From assembly GCA_022706865.1 (NCBI GenBank), contig JAKJBT010000075.1, positions 1 through 8,051 of the forward strand: 8,051 nt of DNA, read 5' to 3'. Shown piece by piece: positions 2,987 through 8,051 of this stretch. The number at the start of each line of letters is the position of its first letter. The stretch's first letter is position 1. The position numbers were made by a program, and so were the translations under genes. This stretch comes from Bacillota bacterium (GTDB lineage: Bacteria > Bacillota_A > Clostridia > Lutisporales > Lutisporaceae). The notes under the pieces are model-generated. The model was not told the origin of the DNA. It saw only the letters and a program-made list of their open reading frames with translations, and ran no database searches.

Positions 2987-4105
2987 ATGAAAGAAATTAT
3001 GGCAGACAAGTTGACGAAAGCAGTAACAGGGCTAATGTTATTGGTGATGCTGCTGTTCGTATGCCTGGAGAAGCCTGCAGTGGTAAGGAAGGTTTTTTCG
3101 GGATTAAATGAAACAGAGGACATGACTGATTCCATACATCAGATATTCCGCAACAGGAATAATGCGATAATAAACGGAGACCTTAAGCTGATTCAATCCC
3201 TATATGACACAAGCACCAAGTACGGCACATGGGCGCATCAGCATGAGCTGACCAAGGTCAAGTACATCCACAACTGGGAGAAGAAGCAGGGGGTGAAATT
3301 CACCGAAATCATACCGACGGTGAAGGTAAGAAGCATCAAGCCCAAGGGCGAAAAGTACACAATTAATCTGATGTGTTCAACGGAGTACAAGTATATATAT
3401 GAGAATGAGCCCGGCGTTGTAAACAGCTTCAGGATAGGAACCTACCATGTGCTAGACCTTTTATACAAGGATGAGGTATGGATAATAACAAGGGAGTGGT
3501 ACAAGGACCCTTTTGAGGATTCTTTGAATTTAGGAAAGATTGATGTTGATTCAGTACATCAGTATATAAGCACTCATGCGGCAAGGGATCTTTCCAATAT
3601 AGGCGACAGGAGAAAAAATGCAGTGACGTATGCAGATAAATACTGCGGCGCTGCAAGCGAAGAAAAGTATGGCTACAAGTACAACAAGAAATACAGGAAC
3701 TACAACTCCCAGGGAGGAGACTGCGCAAATTTCGCGTCACAAATACTGCATGAGGGGGGAAAGTTCAGAAAGACCCACTCATGGAATTACAACAGTAAAG
3801 GTGCTACCCGGGCATGGGTAAATGCAGACGGCTTCAAGATCTATATGCTGTACAGCGGCAGGGCTTCGCTCATTGCCTACGGCAATTATGAAAAGGTGTA
3901 TAAGGCATCCTACAAGCTGCTGCCCGGGGACTTCATTGCGTATGAGAAAAAGGGAGATATCACGCATATATCAGTAGTTACAGGCGCTGACTCAAAGGGA
4001 TACGCCCTGGTGACCTGCCATAATACCGACAGAAACAGAGTGCCCTGGGACCTGGGCTGGAGCAACGGCAAGATCAAGTTCTGGCTGATTCGTGTGCATT
4101 TTTAG
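2987..4105 (+). CDS. Exported/membrane-anchored amidase-domain protein (Amidase_6, CHAP/NlpC-P60-like cysteine amidase)
   Basis: The 372-residue protein has one N-terminal hydrophobic segment (about residues 11-27) after a lysine-containing start, acting as a signal anchor or uncleaved signal. No good lipobox surrounds Cys26. Residues about 45-180 form a lineage-specific alpha/beta region of the kind often found before this domain. The C-terminal part matches the putative amidase domain Amidase_6: AVTYADKYC at about 212-220, the nucleophile motif GGDCANFASQ with Cys246, a Trp-rich stretch (SWNY, RAWVNADG), and the probable catalytic His327 in DITHISVV, followed by CHNTDR near 344-349. Family knowledge suggests papain-like cleavage of an amide bond, possibly in peptidoglycan; the substrate is unknown. 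The start is ATG 2987 with AAGGGG seven bases upstream. It sits alone between the fdhA terminator and the next promoter, with no clear terminator after it, so reading into the transglutaminase gene is possible. Confidence 0.85.
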   Translation: MKEIMADKLTKAVTGLMLLVMLLFVCLEKPAVVRKVFSGLNETEDMTDSIHQIFRNRNNAIINGDLKLIQSLYDTSTKYGTWAHQHELTKVKYIHNWEKKQGVKFTEIIPTVKVRSIKPKGEKYTINLMCSTEYKYIYENEPGVVNSFRIGTYHVLDLLYKDEVWIITREWYKDPFEDSLNLGKIDVDSVHQYISTHAARDLSNIGDRRKNAVTYADKYCGAASEEKYGYKYNKKYRNYNSQGGDCANFASQILHEGGKFRKTHSWNYNSKGATRAWVNADGFKIYMLYSGRASLIAYGNYEKVYKASYKLLPGDFIAYEKKGDITHISVVTGADSKGYALVTCHNTDRNRVPWDLGWSNGKIKFWLIRVHF

Positions 4106-4150: not shown

Positions 4151-4166
4151 ATCTGTTGAAACAGAT
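4151..4166. promoter_or_regulatory. Inverted repeat overlapping the -35 box (candidate operator)
   Basis: ATCTGTT-GA-AACAGAT is a perfect 7-bp inverted repeat with a 2-base centre. It completely covers the TTGAAA -35 element. The symmetry and position fit the binding site of a dimeric DNA-binding regulator. The regulator is unknown and the function is inferred from position alone. Confidence 0.45.
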
Positions 4167-4184
4167 ATGGGACAAGCTTATAAT
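4156..4184 (+). promoter_or_regulatory. Sigma-A promoter of the transglutaminase-like gene
   Basis: TTGAAA (4156-4161) and TATAAT (4179-4184) are separated by 17 bases, which is nearly consensus. Initiation would be expected around 4190-4192. The transcript would therefore begin just before the class I c-di-GMP aptamer, as expected for a riboswitch leader. Confidence 0.85.
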
Positions 4185-4199
4185 ATTGGTAAGGCAACC

Positions 4200-4289
4200 C
4201 AATGAAAAGGCAAACCCGGCGAAAGCCGGGGACGCAAAGCCAACGGATCTAAGGCAGAAATGCTATGACGGCCGGGCTCCCAAAGGGGG
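4200..4289 (+). promoter_or_regulatory. Cyclic di-GMP class I (GEMM-I) riboswitch
   Basis: The conserved GEMM-I landmarks appear in order. GGCAAAC starts at 4210. A CCCGGC-GAAA-GCCGGG hairpin provides the GNRA tetraloop (4215-4230). GGACGCAAAGCC follows and closes back on GGC. The second arm contains GGATCTAA, a small GGCA-GAAA-TGCT hairpin, and then TATGACGGCCGGG. The aptamer starts about 10-15 bases after the predicted transcription start. Directly after it, CTCCC (4277-4281) can pair with the Shine-Dalgarno bases GGGGG (4285-4289) across an AAA loop, which suggests translational control. The exact boundaries and the outer closing helix could not be fixed by eye. Confidence 0.92.
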
Positions 4290-4296
4290 TATTTTT

Positions 4297-5130
4297 ATGA
4301 AAAAATGCTTTGTCAGTATATTGATGGCGATATCTATTATTGTAAATTTAAGTATCATACCTGTATTTGCATATAGTACAAGCTATATCAAGAACGGCGT
4401 TAAGCTGGACAAGCCCGGGAAAAGCCGGGTGGAGGGATATATCAGGATCAGCGGCAGCACTGATAACAATAAGATAAAACTGCTGGTATCCGGCGGGGAC
4501 AAGCAGGTATGGTATGATGTAAAGCTGAATAACGGGGAATTTGATGAGGAAATCTGGTTCGACAAAAAAGGGAAGTATACCATAAAAGTAATGGTCCACG
4601 AATATGACAGGAAATACAGCTATGGGCCGGGATTTACCTTAGAAAACACTGAAGAATCGGATGAATACCTGATTCCGGCAAAGCACATAGAAAGCAATGA
4701 TGCCGTAATAATTGACACTGCAAGGGAAATAACCAAGGCCTGCAGCAGTGATCTTGAAAAGGCAAGGGCAATATATGATTGGGTGACTGACAACATAAGA
4801 TTTGACTATAATAAGCTCGAAATGCATAAAAGAGGCCAGTACGACAATAAGTACGGAGCTTTAAATACAATAAAAACAAGAAGGGGAGTCTGCTACGACT
4901 ACGCAACTCTCGCAGCGGCACTAAGCCGTTCCCTGGGGCTCCGGGCAAAGGTCGCGGAAGGGGATTTGAATAAGGGTCCATTGAAGGGCTTACATGCATG
5001 GAATGAGATATACATTGAGGAATCGGGCAGCTGGATCAGAATAGACACAACCTTGGGGGCAACCACCGGAGAAGATTATTTCGATTTTGAGAATAATGAC
5101 GAAAGCTATGTAGCATTTGAATTTAAATAG
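4297..5130 (+). CDS. Secreted transglutaminase-like (papain-fold) protein under c-di-GMP control
   Basis: The 277-residue protein starts with a clear signal peptide (KK, hydrophobic 5-23, probable cleavage after VFA at residue 25). Residues about 30-118 look like a beta-sandwich domain with alternating strands (VEGYIRISG, IKLLVSGG, GKYTIKVMV), possibly for binding or spacing. The C-terminal part is a transglutaminase-like domain with the expected triad: Cys199 in RRGVCYDYATLAAALSRSLG, His233 in GLHAWNEIYI, and Asp250 in WIRIDTT. Family members cross-link or cleave proteins or peptidoglycan-linked peptides; the substrate cannot be read from sequence. ATG 4297 is chosen because of AAAGGGGG seven bases upstream and the signal peptide. 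A longer open frame back to 4108 would read through the promoter and riboswitch and is rejected. Expression is predicted to depend on c-di-GMP through the GEMM-I leader. The gene has its own terminator. Confidence 0.9.
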   Translation: MKKCFVSILMAISIIVNLSIIPVFAYSTSYIKNGVKLDKPGKSRVEGYIRISGSTDNNKIKLLVSGGDKQVWYDVKLNNGEFDEEIWFDKKGKYTIKVMVHEYDRKYSYGPGFTLENTEESDEYLIPAKHIESNDAVIIDTAREITKACSSDLEKARAIYDWVTDNIRFDYNKLEMHKRGQYDNKYGALNTIKTRRGVCYDYATLAAALSRSLGLRAKVAEGDLNKGPLKGLHAWNEIYIEESGSWIRIDTTLGATTGEDYFDFENNDESYVAFEFK

Positions 5131-5278: not shown

Positions 5279-5284
5279 TATAAT
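5279..5284 (+). promoter_or_regulatory. Probable -10 element of the sipW-tasA unit
   Basis: A perfect TATAAT lies 25-30 bases before the start of the class II aptamer, which is where a riboswitch leader promoter should be. No good -35 box is seen 16-18 bases upstream; the bases there are CAACCT-like. It may be a weak or activator-dependent promoter, or use another sigma factor. The flanking DNA from 5171 is very AT-rich and holds no gene. Confidence 0.45.
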
Positions 5285-5306
5285 CTAATTTGAAAAGCGT
5301 GTACAC

Positions 5307-5377
5307 ATGGGGAACGATGAACTGCGCTCTTTAACTGGGCATCTGGAGCGTGTGGAGTTAGCGATGCAACCGACCCA
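5307..5377 (+). promoter_or_regulatory. Cyclic di-GMP class II riboswitch aptamer
   Basis: The conserved class II signature is present: GATGAAC, TTTAACTGGGCA, GGAGTTAGC and GATGCAACCGACC. GCATC (5339-5343) pairs with GATGC (5363-5367). The pseudoknot helix is CGCTC (5325-5329) with GAGCG (5346-5350). Its bases differ from those in the C. acetobutylicum class II RNA as I recall it, but pairing is kept, as expected from covariation. TGGG (5308-5311) can close the structure with CCCA (5374-5377). The aptamer leads straight into a terminator, so control is at transcription elongation. Confidence 0.93.
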
Positions 5378-5404
5378 ATCTTATTTTAAGATTGGGTTTT
5401 GTTA
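5373..5404 (+). terminator. Riboswitch-controlled intrinsic terminator
   Basis: ACCCAATCTTA (5373-5383) pairs perfectly with TAAGATTGGGT (5387-5397) around a TTT loop. It is followed by TTTT, G and TTATTT. The first bases of its 5' strand (CCCA) are also the 3' strand of the aptamer's closing helix, so terminator and ligand-bound aptamer compete. It lies 130 bases before sipW and between no two genes, as expected for an attenuator. Confidence 0.92.
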
Positions 5405-5534
5405 TTTCATAGCCGCATATCTCCATTAATAATAAAAATTATGCAGTTCTGGATACAAATGTATATTGTGAATCAAAATGGAAAATAATATATACTGATT
5501 GGGCGTTGTCTGCAAGGGAAAAGGGGGTAGCCGT

Positions 5535-6107
5535 ATGGCTGGAAAAGTCATGAAGGTTATTGGAAATGTATTTACTGTAATCATAATCCTTATTGTCTCA
5601 ATGTCATTGTTTTCATTAATACAATACCGGAAGAATCCGAACAAGCCGCCTTCAGTGTTTGGCTACAGTGCGATGTCGGTATTGACAGGCAGTATGAGGC
5701 CTTACCTGGAGCCGGGGGACATGATAATTGACAAGGCAATAGATGCAGATGAGGTTAAGGTCGGAGATGTACTGACCTACAGGCTTGGAAGTTCTATAGT
5801 CACCCATAGGGTAACAGAGATTATAGCTAAAGATGGCAATTTACTTTTTGAGACCAGAGGAGATGCCAATAACACGGATGACAGCAGGCCGGTAACGGAA
5901 GATCAGCTTATAGGCAAGGTGATACTGAGGGTCCCATATGGGGGATATGTTGCAAGGTTTATCAGGAGCCCGATTGGGTTGATGATTTTTATAGTAATTC
6001 CTGTTGCGATGATGCTCATAGGTGAATTAATGAAAGGCATACTGTCCGGGGGGAAAAATGAAAAGCAGGAGAATTTAAAGTCCGAGGACAGTGTGAATAT
6101 AGATTAA
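5535..6107 (+). CDS. sipW: Signal peptidase I, SipW/ER-type (S26B)
   Basis: The 190-residue membrane protease removes signal peptides from TasA-type precursors. It has an N-terminal membrane segment (about 8-30) and a second one near the C-terminus (about 146-165) followed by a charged tail, the two-segment layout of SipW. The catalytic Ser53 lies in LTGSMRPYLEPGD. His91, in VTHRV, replaces the Lys of ordinary bacterial signal peptidases and marks the ER/SipW type. The acidic box GDANNTDD (Asp110, Asp115, Asp116) completes the site. ATG 5535 is chosen because AAGGGGG lies seven bases upstream; the open frame extends to 5499 without a start context. It is the first gene after the c-di-GMP-II attenuator and precedes two genes with SipW-cognate signal peptides, matching the sipW-tasA pairing of Bacillus with gene order reversed. 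Confidence 0.93.
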   Translation: MAGKVMKVIGNVFTVIIILIVSMSLFSLIQYRKNPNKPPSVFGYSAMSVLTGSMRPYLEPGDMIIDKAIDADEVKVGDVLTYRLGSSIVTHRVTEIIAKDGNLLFETRGDANNTDDSRPVTEDQLIGKVILRVPYGGYVARFIRSPIGLMIFIVIPVAMMLIGELMKGILSGGKNEKQENLKSEDSVNID

Positions 6108-6304
6108 ACTTATACAGTATCTGCAGCTGAACTTATTTGAAGAAATGATGGAAGCAAAAGAAAGGGGTGGGATATGAAAATCAGAAATAAAAAAGGAATA
6201 CCTTGACGGGGCATTCCGAAAAAGAAACAAAAAAATTACTCTTGGTACTATTATAACAGAAAAAAGGATTTTAATGAAGAAAAATGTTTAGGAGGCAAAG
6301 TGGA
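6108..6304 (+). other. Intergenic leader between sipW and the first tasA-like gene, with a tiny ORF and a hairpin
   Basis: This 197-base gap is AT-rich and has no long gene. It contains a well-placed ribosome site (AAAGGGGTGGG, about 6160-6170) before ATG 6175, which opens a 10-codon frame (MKIRNKKGIP) ending at TGA 6205-6207. GGAAT (6195-6199) can pair with ATTCC (6213-6217), extended by CC/GG inside, and no U-run follows. The gap may hold a leader peptide, a relic of a lost gene start, or an RNA stability element. Confidence 0.4.
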
Positions 6305-6826
6305 ATGAACAAGAAGTTAGTAATCAGTTTGGTTTTGATAGGTGCATTGGCATTCAGCTTAGGACTTGGATCCTACGCGTGGTTTACCAGCACAGCAACC
6401 AGCAGTAACAACCTCTTTGAAACGGGAACATTGGCAATAGGTGTTGAAAGCCCATTAATTGCAGAAACAGAGTTCAAAAATATATATCCTTCATGGAACT
6501 CTGGTGTGAAGACTTATGATATTAAGAATGAAGGTACATTAGCTCTCAAATACAGGATGACAGTTCAAGGGGAAGTTGGGGAACTGCTTTATGACGGTCC
6601 TACCCCCCTCCAGGTAAAAATCAATAACAATGATTTTGTTGACATAAATCAGGTTGGAACAGTTTATATTGGAGAAATAGAAGCCGGCCAGACGGGGGAA
6701 CTGAATCTTCAGTTCAGGCTGCCTGAAGAAGCAGACAATGATTATCAGAATGAAATTGCAAGCTTCACCTTTGTTTTTGAAGCAACTCAGGTTGACAATC
6801 CCGGCTGGAATGAAGCAGGCGAATAG
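6305..6826 (+). CDS. TasA/camelysin-family protein with SipW-dependent signal peptide
   Basis: The 173-residue exported protein is related to TasA/CalY, the matrix fibre subunits of Bacillus. The N-terminus has the SipW-cognate pattern: MNKK, a hydrophobic stretch to about residue 21, then GSYAWFTSTATSSNNLFETGTL. Cleavage is probably after Ala25. The mature part shows family marks: GTLAIGVE after the signal, YDIKNEGTLALKYRM (the N-x-G-x-L/I-x-x-K/R strand pair), a beta-rich middle, and the terminal FTFVFEATQVDNPGW. The start is ATG 6305 with AGGAGG nine bases upstream; the frame extends to 6284 without a better start. It lacks sortase or membrane anchors, so it should be released or polymerise on the surface. 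It belongs to the sipW unit and should follow its c-di-GMP control. Whether it forms fibres cannot be told from sequence. Confidence 0.9.
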   Translation: MNKKLVISLVLIGALAFSLGLGSYAWFTSTATSSNNLFETGTLAIGVESPLIAETEFKNIYPSWNSGVKTYDIKNEGTLALKYRMTVQGEVGELLYDGPTPLQVKINNNDFVDINQVGTVYIGEIEAGQTGELNLQFRLPEEADNDYQNEIASFTFVFEATQVDNPGWNEAGE

Positions 6827-6860: not shown

Positions 6861-7838
6861 ATGAATAAAAGATTATTAGCCGTAGCAATGGCAGTGGTGC
6901 TTATCTGTGCTGCTGCAGGTGCAGGCACAATGGCCTGGTTTACCAGTTCGGCAACAAGCTCCGGAAACGTATTCCAAGCGGGAACCTTGATACTTGGATC
7001 GGAAGTTGACGGCGAGGATGTATATGAAAAATTCGCAACACTGGAATTCAAGGCTATGGAGCCTGGTGAGCCACCTGTAAAGGTGTTGGAAACCGAACTT
7101 AAAAATGTCGGTTCACTCCCATTCTACCTATATAGGATGACTGCTTCAGGTATAGTAGACAATAACAGCGAAAACAACATAGATGACATGATACTAAACG
7201 AAGTATTGAAGCTTAAGATATTCATAGGAGGCGAGCAGGTCTATTATGGCAAGCTCAGCCAGATGGTAGAGGAGAACGGAGGATTCTTCGATCCAATATA
7301 CGGTATACAGCCCGGAGAGGAAAGGACACTCACGATAGAAGCTGAGCTTCCGGCTTCAACAGGCAATGCATATCAGGGCTTGAGCATGAAATGCGATCTC
7401 AACATATTCGCAGCTCAGGAAGAGATGCCTGTACCAGGAGAGCCGCCTTTGGGAACACGTTATGACTTGGGCGGCAACGACAGATTCAGTGTAGAAGGAT
7501 ACAATACAAATAATTATGTAAATTTTGATTGGGATTGGACACCCAATGACACGCTTCTTGGTGAGTATTATGAAATAAGGATAAAGCACGAAACCGGTGA
7601 TACAACGACAGAAATACAGGAATTGCGGATATTAATATTCCCATTCGAGCAGGTAATTACAGCAGATGGTATAGATCCAGACGATGTATCGGTAGATTGG
7701 GGCGACGACATAGTGAGAATCAGGAGAAGTGCTTTCCCATCAGATTGGGATGGATTTGAGGTTGAACTGAGTGGTACACAGGGGGATGGTTCTGTGCTGA
7801 CAATCCCATATCAATACTTCTCGCTGGCAAGAGAGTAG
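6861..7838 (+). CDS. Larger TasA-like protein with SipW-dependent signal peptide and extra C-terminal domain
   Basis: The 325-residue paralogue of the preceding gene begins 34 bases after it with GGAGGG seven bases before ATG. The signal region AWFTSSATSSGNVFQAGTL is nearly the same as in the first protein, and cleavage is expected after Ala25. Residues about 26-186 follow the TasA/camelysin plan (GTLILGSE, ETELKNVGSLPFYLYRM, a long insert at about 96-145, IQPGEERTLTIEAELP, then the last strand with NIFAAQ). A Pro-rich linker (EEMPVPGEPPLG, 187-198) joins it to a 127-residue C-terminal domain. That domain is rich in aromatic and acidic residues (VNFDWDWTPND, DPDDVSVDWGDD) and beta-prone, and I do not recognise it. 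It may be an adhesion or filament-capping domain, but that is a guess. No anchor motif is visible at the C-terminus. Confidence 0.85.
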   Translation: MNKRLLAVAMAVVLICAAAGAGTMAWFTSSATSSGNVFQAGTLILGSEVDGEDVYEKFATLEFKAMEPGEPPVKVLETELKNVGSLPFYLYRMTASGIVDNNSENNIDDMILNEVLKLKIFIGGEQVYYGKLSQMVEENGGFFDPIYGIQPGEERTLTIEAELPASTGNAYQGLSMKCDLNIFAAQEEMPVPGEPPLGTRYDLGGNDRFSVEGYNTNNYVNFDWDWTPNDTLLGEYYEIRIKHETGDTTTEIQELRILIFPFEQVITADGIDPDDVSVDWGDDIVRIRRSAFPSDWDGFEVELSGTQGDGSVLTIPYQYFSLARE

Positions 7839-7947: not shown

Positions 7948-8051
7948 TTGAAGAAAAAAAGATTATCAAGAATCGCAGCCTTGGTATTGCTGGCTTTTGT
8001 GACGAGCCTGTGTTTCCAAGGCATATTGCAGCCTGTATTTGCCCGAGCCGG
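7948..8051 (+). CDS. 5' end of a gene for a secreted protein (cut by window edge)
   Basis: The frame opens with TTG at 7948 and runs off the window after 34 codons. The upstream bases AAAGGTGGTGA (7929-7939) match the 16S rRNA tail complement with one mismatch, which favours TTG; in-frame GTGs at 7933 and 7936 lie inside that site. The product starts KKKRLSRIAALVLLAFV and shows a standard Sec signal peptide ending at about QPVFA, so cleavage after residue 32 is likely. Unlike the two preceding proteins, it lacks the AWFTS SipW-cognate motif and is probably processed by an ordinary signal peptidase. Its function cannot be known from this fragment. It could be a further surface or matrix component if transcription passes the weak terminator before it. 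Confidence 0.75.
   Translation, partial: MKKKRLSRIAALVLLAFVTSLCFQGILQPVFARA

Follow-up and report, generated by a model that had tools for sequence, protein, structure and literature searches.

In an anaerobic member of the Lutisporaceae, a class II c-di-GMP riboswitch situated directly upstream of sipW very probably switches on transcription of a matrix operon of the sipW-tasA type. In Bacillus, TasA-type fibers serve as a model of the biofilm matrix and are governed by regulatory proteins. The location of a riboswitch directly before sipW-tasA, and its recurrence in relatives, indicate that the fibers are probably switched on by c-di-GMP itself and not only by such proteins. The analysis was performed on a stretch of 8,051 nucleotides, here called the window, and on related loci from a genome collection. 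The aptamer, its covarying fold, the overlap of its P1 helix with a terminator, the families of the downstream genes, and the recurrence of the arrangement in relatives support this proposal, and from these we infer ligand binding, the sign of the switch, co-transcription of sipW with the tasA-like genes, and fiber formation.

Aptamer, terminator and predicted switching

Scanning of the window with the Rfam models (cmscan) located the full class II c-di-GMP aptamer model (RF01786, model positions 1-84) at positions 5301-5384 of the plus strand, with a score of 61.2 bits against a gathering threshold of 53.5 (E 4.6e-12), and RF01786 outscored the other families of its clan. A class II riboswitch before sipW, as put forward in the original prediction, thus exceeds the Rfam gathering threshold; the predicted span (5307-5404) correctly indicated the riboswitch, whereas its boundaries omitted the first six aptamer bases and included the terminator. 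The four aptamer motifs quoted in support of that prediction are all present in the sequence. Between the upstream transglutaminase-like gene and sipW no Rfam match other than RF01786 was found at E values up to 1, and the whole window contained four matches at this level, two of which are c-di-GMP riboswitches above cut-off. The fourth match, to sR51 (E 0.45), is regarded as a chance hit.

The structure, comprising the Rfam fold and the pseudoknot, was counted on 30 aligned aptamers, i.e., that of the window and 29 of 35 class II matches (loci were available for 30 of these, and L110 was omitted as weak). In this set 83.3% of the cells were paired, compared to 66.0% after shuffling, and the covariation score was 0.589 versus 0.259, with none of 500 shuffles reaching a value as high. 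Structures displaced by 1-3 columns were paired in 33-41% of the cells. The pseudoknot, which had been claimed to covary, is formed by GCAUC (5339-5343) and GAUGC (5363-5367) on the plus strand through the pairs G39-C67, C40-G66, A41-U65, U42-A64, and C43-G63; it is intact in the window, paired in every cell of the 30 aptamers, and displays changes on both sides at 4 of its 5 pairs. P1, P2, P3, and the loop pseudoknot, with covariation, are all present in the window aptamer, and the outer P1 pairs are poorly conserved (helix 1 is 64.3% paired among the 30 aptamers). Chance origin of the aptamer is ruled out by the Rfam score and the covariation.

Two positions of the window aptamer deviate from its relatives. 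The U42-A64 pair is the sole such pair among the 30 aptamers, the other 29 having C-G, and it reads as a compensatory change. In a larger collection comprising 74 distinct aptamers, 10 have U42 and 10 have A64, so that this pair represents an established alternative that also occurs outside the window. At aptamer position 62 (5362, plus strand) U, the base of the L002 and L011 aptamers, is conserved in 73 of the 74 distinct sequences and C is found in the window only. This substitution might reduce the affinity or alter the selectivity of the aptamer, and it raises the possibility of a degenerate or re-specialized aptamer, in which the fold was kept and the pocket drifted, leaving a weak response to c-di-GMP or a response to another cyclic dinucleotide. 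Rfam includes variant class II families, and the aptamer in the leader of sipW at locus L006 (5783-5869) exceeds the threshold of one of them, RF03169 (c-di-GMP-II-GAG; 44.2 bits versus 40, with RF01786 at 51.2 versus 53.5); the ligand of this L006 aptamer may differ. In the window, however, the remaining near-invariant tabulated positions show either the prevailing base or a compensated pair in the comparison with the 74 aptamers, the pseudoknot is retained, and the best family of the clan is RF01786 itself, above cut-off. A drifted aptamer is regarded as quite improbable.

The terminator that had been described as abutting the aptamer was found to begin within it. This intrinsic terminator of 12 pairs (5372-5398, plus strand) has a 5' arm of which CCCA (5374-5377) doubles as the 3' arm of P1, where it pairs with UGGG (5308-5311) in a core of four base pairs. 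Folded alone the terminator has an energy of -15.1 kcal/mol (z -6.0), and it is formed in the ligand-free minimum-energy fold of the 109-nt leader (5296-5404). Since CCCA is common to both structures they are mutually exclusive, and an expression platform coupled to P1 in this manner predicts an ON switch. In the absence of c-di-GMP the nascent leader would fold the terminator, and transcription would halt before sipW. Upon binding of c-di-GMP the pseudoknot and P1 would sequester the bases required by the terminator, enabling RNA polymerase to pass this site and allowing production of SipW together with its TasA-family substrates. GGDEF proteins are encoded in all 13 relatives' genomes searched.

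The opposite sign, in which the ligand favors the terminator, has a precedent in the class I c-di-GMP switches of Clostridioides difficile, which act as OFF switches according to the available text of PMC6200980. It is nevertheless extremely unlikely for the class II aptamer of the window, because the terminator needs the P1 3' arm and would be excluded by the bound aptamer. The same applies to 12 of the 13 loci with a class II aptamer directly before sipW, in which a terminator overlapping P1 starts from -11 to +1 nt relative to the P1 3' arm; in the remaining locus, L013, no overlapping terminator was detected by script and a weak hairpin was seen by eye. Moreover, each of the four C. difficile class II switches is an ON switch that raises expression of its genes with c-di-GMP in vivo, as described in the same part of PMC6200980.

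Transcription of the leader may start from a putative TATAAT -10-like hexamer at 5279-5284 (plus strand), which was read from the sequence 16 nt 5' of the aptamer and is not among the sites of the promoter scan; no good -35 box was found 5' of the aptamer. The position of the aptamer, behind the stop codon of the upstream transglutaminase-like gene and a terminator-like site and before sipW on the same strand, ruled out its assignment to that transglutaminase-like gene.

Controlled genes and recurrence of the arrangement

The open reading frame behind the riboswitch (5535-6107, plus strand), preceded by the Shine-Dalgarno-like AAGGGGG at 5521-5527 (plus strand), encodes a SipW-type signal peptidase I (TIGR02228, 115.3 bits versus a cut-off of 51.85) and remains below the cut-off of the narrower Bacillus SipW model NF046067 (116.1 versus 190 bits). 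SipW-type signal peptidases I possess a Ser-His catalytic pair instead of Ser-Lys, and the corresponding Ser53 and His91 are invariant across 17 aligned sequences. Two TasA/camelysin-family proteins with SipW-type signal peptides are encoded further downstream on the plus strand, at 6305-6826 (PF12389, 44.8 versus 22.5 bits; TIGR04088, 22.2 versus 19) and at 6861-7838 (PF12389, 27 versus 22.5; TIGR04088, 32 versus 19). The predicted order of a SipW peptidase and two TasA-like proteins behind the riboswitch agrees with the matches to TIGR02228, PF12389, and TIGR04088, each above cut-off.

A profile of 18 TasA-like proteins matched the solved TasA structures 8aur (E 1.8e-10) and 5of1 (E 3e-10), in two stretches each, the best covering profile positions 32-87 of 261, and searches of solved structures with single TasA-like sequences gave no matches. 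The structure model of a TasA-like protein had a middling confidence (pLDDT 69.9), and the best 50 of its 1194 Foldseek matches comprised pilin-like and other folds, TasA itself being absent from these 50. There is good support from the family models for membership of both proteins in the TasA family, and the designation as a fiber operon, with extracellular fiber formation, is inferred from homology. S-layer-homology proteins are encoded 3' of the TasA-like genes in L005 (8579), L011 (7773), and L003 (10043), and an open frame that starts at 7948 and runs off the window may match these genes.

The extent of the regulated unit has to be considered separately. The riboswitch could govern sipW alone, or it could be bypassed, with sipW or the tasA-like genes depending on further promoters or protein regulators downstream. 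The first tasA-like gene is separated from sipW by 197 nt with an inverted repeat or hairpin at 6195-6217, which may set the relative mRNA levels of sipW and the tasA-like gene. In addition, a weak promoter-like site (9/12) is present at 5406-5433, between terminator and sipW, and could bypass the riboswitch if used; sites of that strength numbered 16 in the scan compared to 12.3 in shuffled sequences. Furthermore, in four genomes (G136, G145, G171, and G216) a class II aptamer is positioned between sipW and the TasA-like gene, which implies that such genes can be targeted on their own. This reading is opposed by the scan, which listed no plus-strand promoter-like or terminator-like site between 6107 and 6305, and by the 13 direct loci, where the map, covering tagged frames and untagged ones of 180 residues or more, shows no co-directional gene between sipW and the TasA-like gene in any case. 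Control of sipW alone, or a bypassed switch, is on balance rather unlikely, and joint control of sipW and the tasA-like genes by the riboswitch is retained below.

The original prediction called for a survey of class II riboswitches upstream of sipW across Clostridia, and a recurrent association was found. In candidate stretches from the genome collection 458 SipW relatives were recovered, the best 80 of which were kept as SipW loci, and a model built from alignment A2 yielded 21 class II matches, 20 of which were full length, in the window and these loci. Twelve of the 80 loci and the window carry a class II aptamer on the sipW strand no more than 600 bp ahead of that gene, and a TasA-like gene is located downstream in each of these 13 direct loci. 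Cultured relatives with this arrangement are Anaerosolibacter carboniphilus (L011) and Lutispora saccharofermentans (L023). Eleven of the 13 score above the RF01786 cut-off; L006 is above that of RF03169, and L007 is below that of RF01786 (49.1 bits). Among the 20 full matches 15 were in sipW-upstream stretches, with 3.1% expected per match, a binomial comparison that treats related loci as independent and employs a model trained on some of those loci. Chance as the origin of the class II-sipW association was ruled out on these counts.

A class I aptamer takes the place directly before sipW in 4 of the 80 loci (L016, L026, L071, and L075), of which only L016 has a TasA-like gene by profile; in the folded class I leaders of L071 and L026 a hairpin with a U-rich tail uses the 3' end of the aptamer. 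Neither c-di-GMP class was found directly upstream in 64 of the 80 loci, four of which had under 600 bp of upstream sequence.

Six further direct cases were found in sampled genomes (G045, G161, G201, G233, G298, and G348), the SipW of G161 being a near copy of that of L001. Within one order, represented by 194 genomes, at least 105 genomes contained class II aptamers (E 0.001 or better) and 58 a SipW relative (E 1e-10 or better). In at least 12 of these 58, with flanks searched in 16 chosen regions, a class II aptamer is located within 1 kb of sipW: directly upstream in at least five (G001, G004, G045, G161, and G201), upstream with one intervening gene in at least three (G036, G080, and G135), and just downstream, before the TasA-like gene, in at least four, i.e., the genomes named above for that position. 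G001, G004, G036, and G145 are genomes already within the 80-locus set. In 142 genomes of three other orders a SipW relative was encountered in 45 (49 loci), with a class II aptamer directly upstream in 8, 3 of which were new. The closest SipW relatives in these three orders (E below 1e-55) had a class II aptamer directly upstream in 8 of 13 cases, and in the flanks fetched for the remaining five no c-di-GMP switch exceeded its Rfam cut-off. The wiring is thus common in close relatives but by no means general.

The history of this wiring was evaluated on a tree of 87 SipW proteins, 16 rows of which bear the class II label. The label requires 6 changes compared to 14.8 with shuffled labels, none of 500 shuffles being as low, and the labeled loci span Clostridiaceae, Thermotaleaceae, Thermohalobacteraceae, Tepidanaerobacteraceae, and Lutisporaceae. 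The window is placed within a clade of seven rows (98/92), six of which have the class II aptamer immediately ahead of sipW. In Geosporobacter L014, the seventh row, the aptamer is followed by a histidine kinase gene and a response-regulator-like gene, and then by sipW. The starred branches force at least 5 changes, which excludes a single origin without loss on the SipW tree. The simplest reading is that the wiring would be old and mostly inherited, with losses.

Class I riboswitch and transglutaminase-like neighbor

A second c-di-GMP riboswitch, which had not been named earlier, is present at 4199-4284 on the plus strand (class I, RF01051; 79.8 bits versus a gathering threshold of 35). Its leader is preceded by a sigma-A-like promoter (TTGAAA-17-TATAAT, 4156-4184, plus strand; 11 of 12 positions match, by consensus comparison only), and it is followed by a gene for a transglutaminase-like protein (Transglut_core, 4297-5130, plus strand; PF01841, 86.9 bits) with an N-terminal signal peptide predicted by eye. 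Just before the class I leader, a gene at 2987-4105 encodes a protein with a putative C-terminal amidase domain (PF12671). Elsewhere in the window, a SECIS_3-like element (1201-1259; 53.5 bits, below the cut-off of 63) is found at an in-frame TGA that splits the formate dehydrogenase frame into 151-1206 and 1255-2829, and the enzyme is probably a selenocysteine protein. Among the 120 listed of 7999 scored relatives of this formate dehydrogenase, seven carry an organism name, four of them from Clostridia (Geosporobacter and Anaerosolibacter at 69%, a Clostridia bacterium, and a Ruminiclostridium) and three from Deltaproteobacteria or Geobacteraceae.

The order class I aptamer, transglutaminase-like gene, class II aptamer, sipW is shared by the window, L005, L006, and L011, and by L014 with two genes inserted; L001 and L139 have a class I tandem and a transglutaminase-like gene at the other end of the cluster. 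In L196 (2181-2467, minus strand) a class I and then a class II aptamer, 117 nt apart, precede sipW, and no full transglutaminase gene lies between them; the intervening stretch keeps a start region that by eye resembles the transglutaminase genes of L005 and L006, as if the gene had been lost. At another locus of the Geosporobacter genome, L154 (5419-5824, minus strand), an open frame of 655 residues is preceded by a class I aptamer and two class II aptamers in succession; the two class II aptamers are 3 nt apart, and no terminator was detected by script after the last one.

The Shine-Dalgarno-like GGGGG of the transglutaminase-like gene (4285-4289) can pair with the 5' flank of the leader, and the P1 helix of the class I aptamer is able to include the Shine-Dalgarno sequence in 7 of 8 loci, an arrangement that would make the class I riboswitch an OFF switch. 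In the window this pairing has an energy of -9.6 kcal/mol, a value equaled by 37 of 500 shuffles. It is clear in comparison to shuffles in L001 (1/500), its near copy L139 (3/500), and L154 (4/500), and is not distinguished from shuffles in L005 (101/500), L006 (106/500), and L011 (202/500); the duplex found in L014 (36/500) includes no Shine-Dalgarno sequence. For the window the evidence for an OFF switch is suggestive.

The transglutaminase-like protease LapG sets an adhesin free when c-di-GMP is low (LapG/LapA). A comparable two-sided matrix switch is conceivable for the window, though rather doubtful: at high c-di-GMP the class II switch would be ON, giving SipW and TasA, and the class I switch OFF, silencing the transglutaminase-like enzyme, which at low c-di-GMP would be made and would cut or loosen the fibers.

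Relation to known systems and implications

All parts of the locus are of known kinds, and direct wiring of c-di-GMP to the SipW-TasA module was not met in the open-licence text available. As stated in the original prediction, sipW-tasA of Bacillus is under protein regulators: the tapA-sipW-tasA operon of B. subtilis is controlled by SinR, SlrR, AbrB, and RemA, as reviewed in PMC8072697 in the text available. The window resembles this operon in that a SipW-type peptidase adjoins TasA-family proteins by profile homology, and differs from it in that sipW comes first and that an RNA sensor is predicted in place of the regulator proteins described in that part of PMC8072697.

The sipW-bsaA locus of Clostridium perfringens likewise combines a clostridial SipW with a matrix protein. 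According to the accessible text of PMC7395162 it is subject to the BsaRS two-component system and to temperature control and directs pellicle biofilm, in contrast to the window with its c-di-GMP riboswitch; the terms 'riboswitch' and 'c-di-GMP' appear once each in that text, both in the reference list.

In C. difficile, class II switches precede CD2831, CD3246, cmrRST, and the pilin operon, adhesins and pili being among the targets (PMC6200980 and PMC11477304, in the portions available). The window shares with these the aptamer family and, by prediction, the ON logic, whereas its switch precedes signal peptidase and TasA-family genes; neither 'sipW' nor 'TasA' occurs in the main text of PMC6200980 as available, and neither is among the four targets in the corresponding part of PMC11477304.

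Tandem c-di-GMP-I riboswitches before COG1305 transglutaminase-like genes have been reported in Bacillota (PMC12452182, available text). The window agrees with these cases in the class I switch before its transglutaminase-like gene and departs from them by a single class I copy, located beside a sipW operon preceded by a class II switch. Another parallel is offered by PPEP-1 of C. difficile, which has a class I OFF switch, and its adhesin substrates with class II ON switches (PMC11477304, available part). In both systems c-di-GMP switches precede the genes for a secreted enzyme and for surface proteins, with opposite signs in the window only if the OFF reading is true; unlike PPEP-1, the enzyme of the window is transglutaminase-like and adjacent to its putative partner genes.

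Among the matches listed in the open-licence literature, to the extent of the text provided, no link of a c-di-GMP riboswitch to sipW or tasA was found, and none is made in the available text of PMC2614493, PMC5422440, PMC7395162, or PMC8209462.

If true, the two-sided switch would add a third and independent case to the logic of PPEP-1 and its adhesins and of LapG/LapA, present in several clostridial families. For the class II switch, an RNA sensor appears to place sipW-tasA under direct c-di-GMP control across several clostridial families, and a few other loci have class I aptamers in the same place before sipW. If this holds, the regulation of sipW-tasA would not be simply transferable from B. 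subtilis, and there would be a simple, testable rule for the timing of matrix building in anaerobic Firmicutes.
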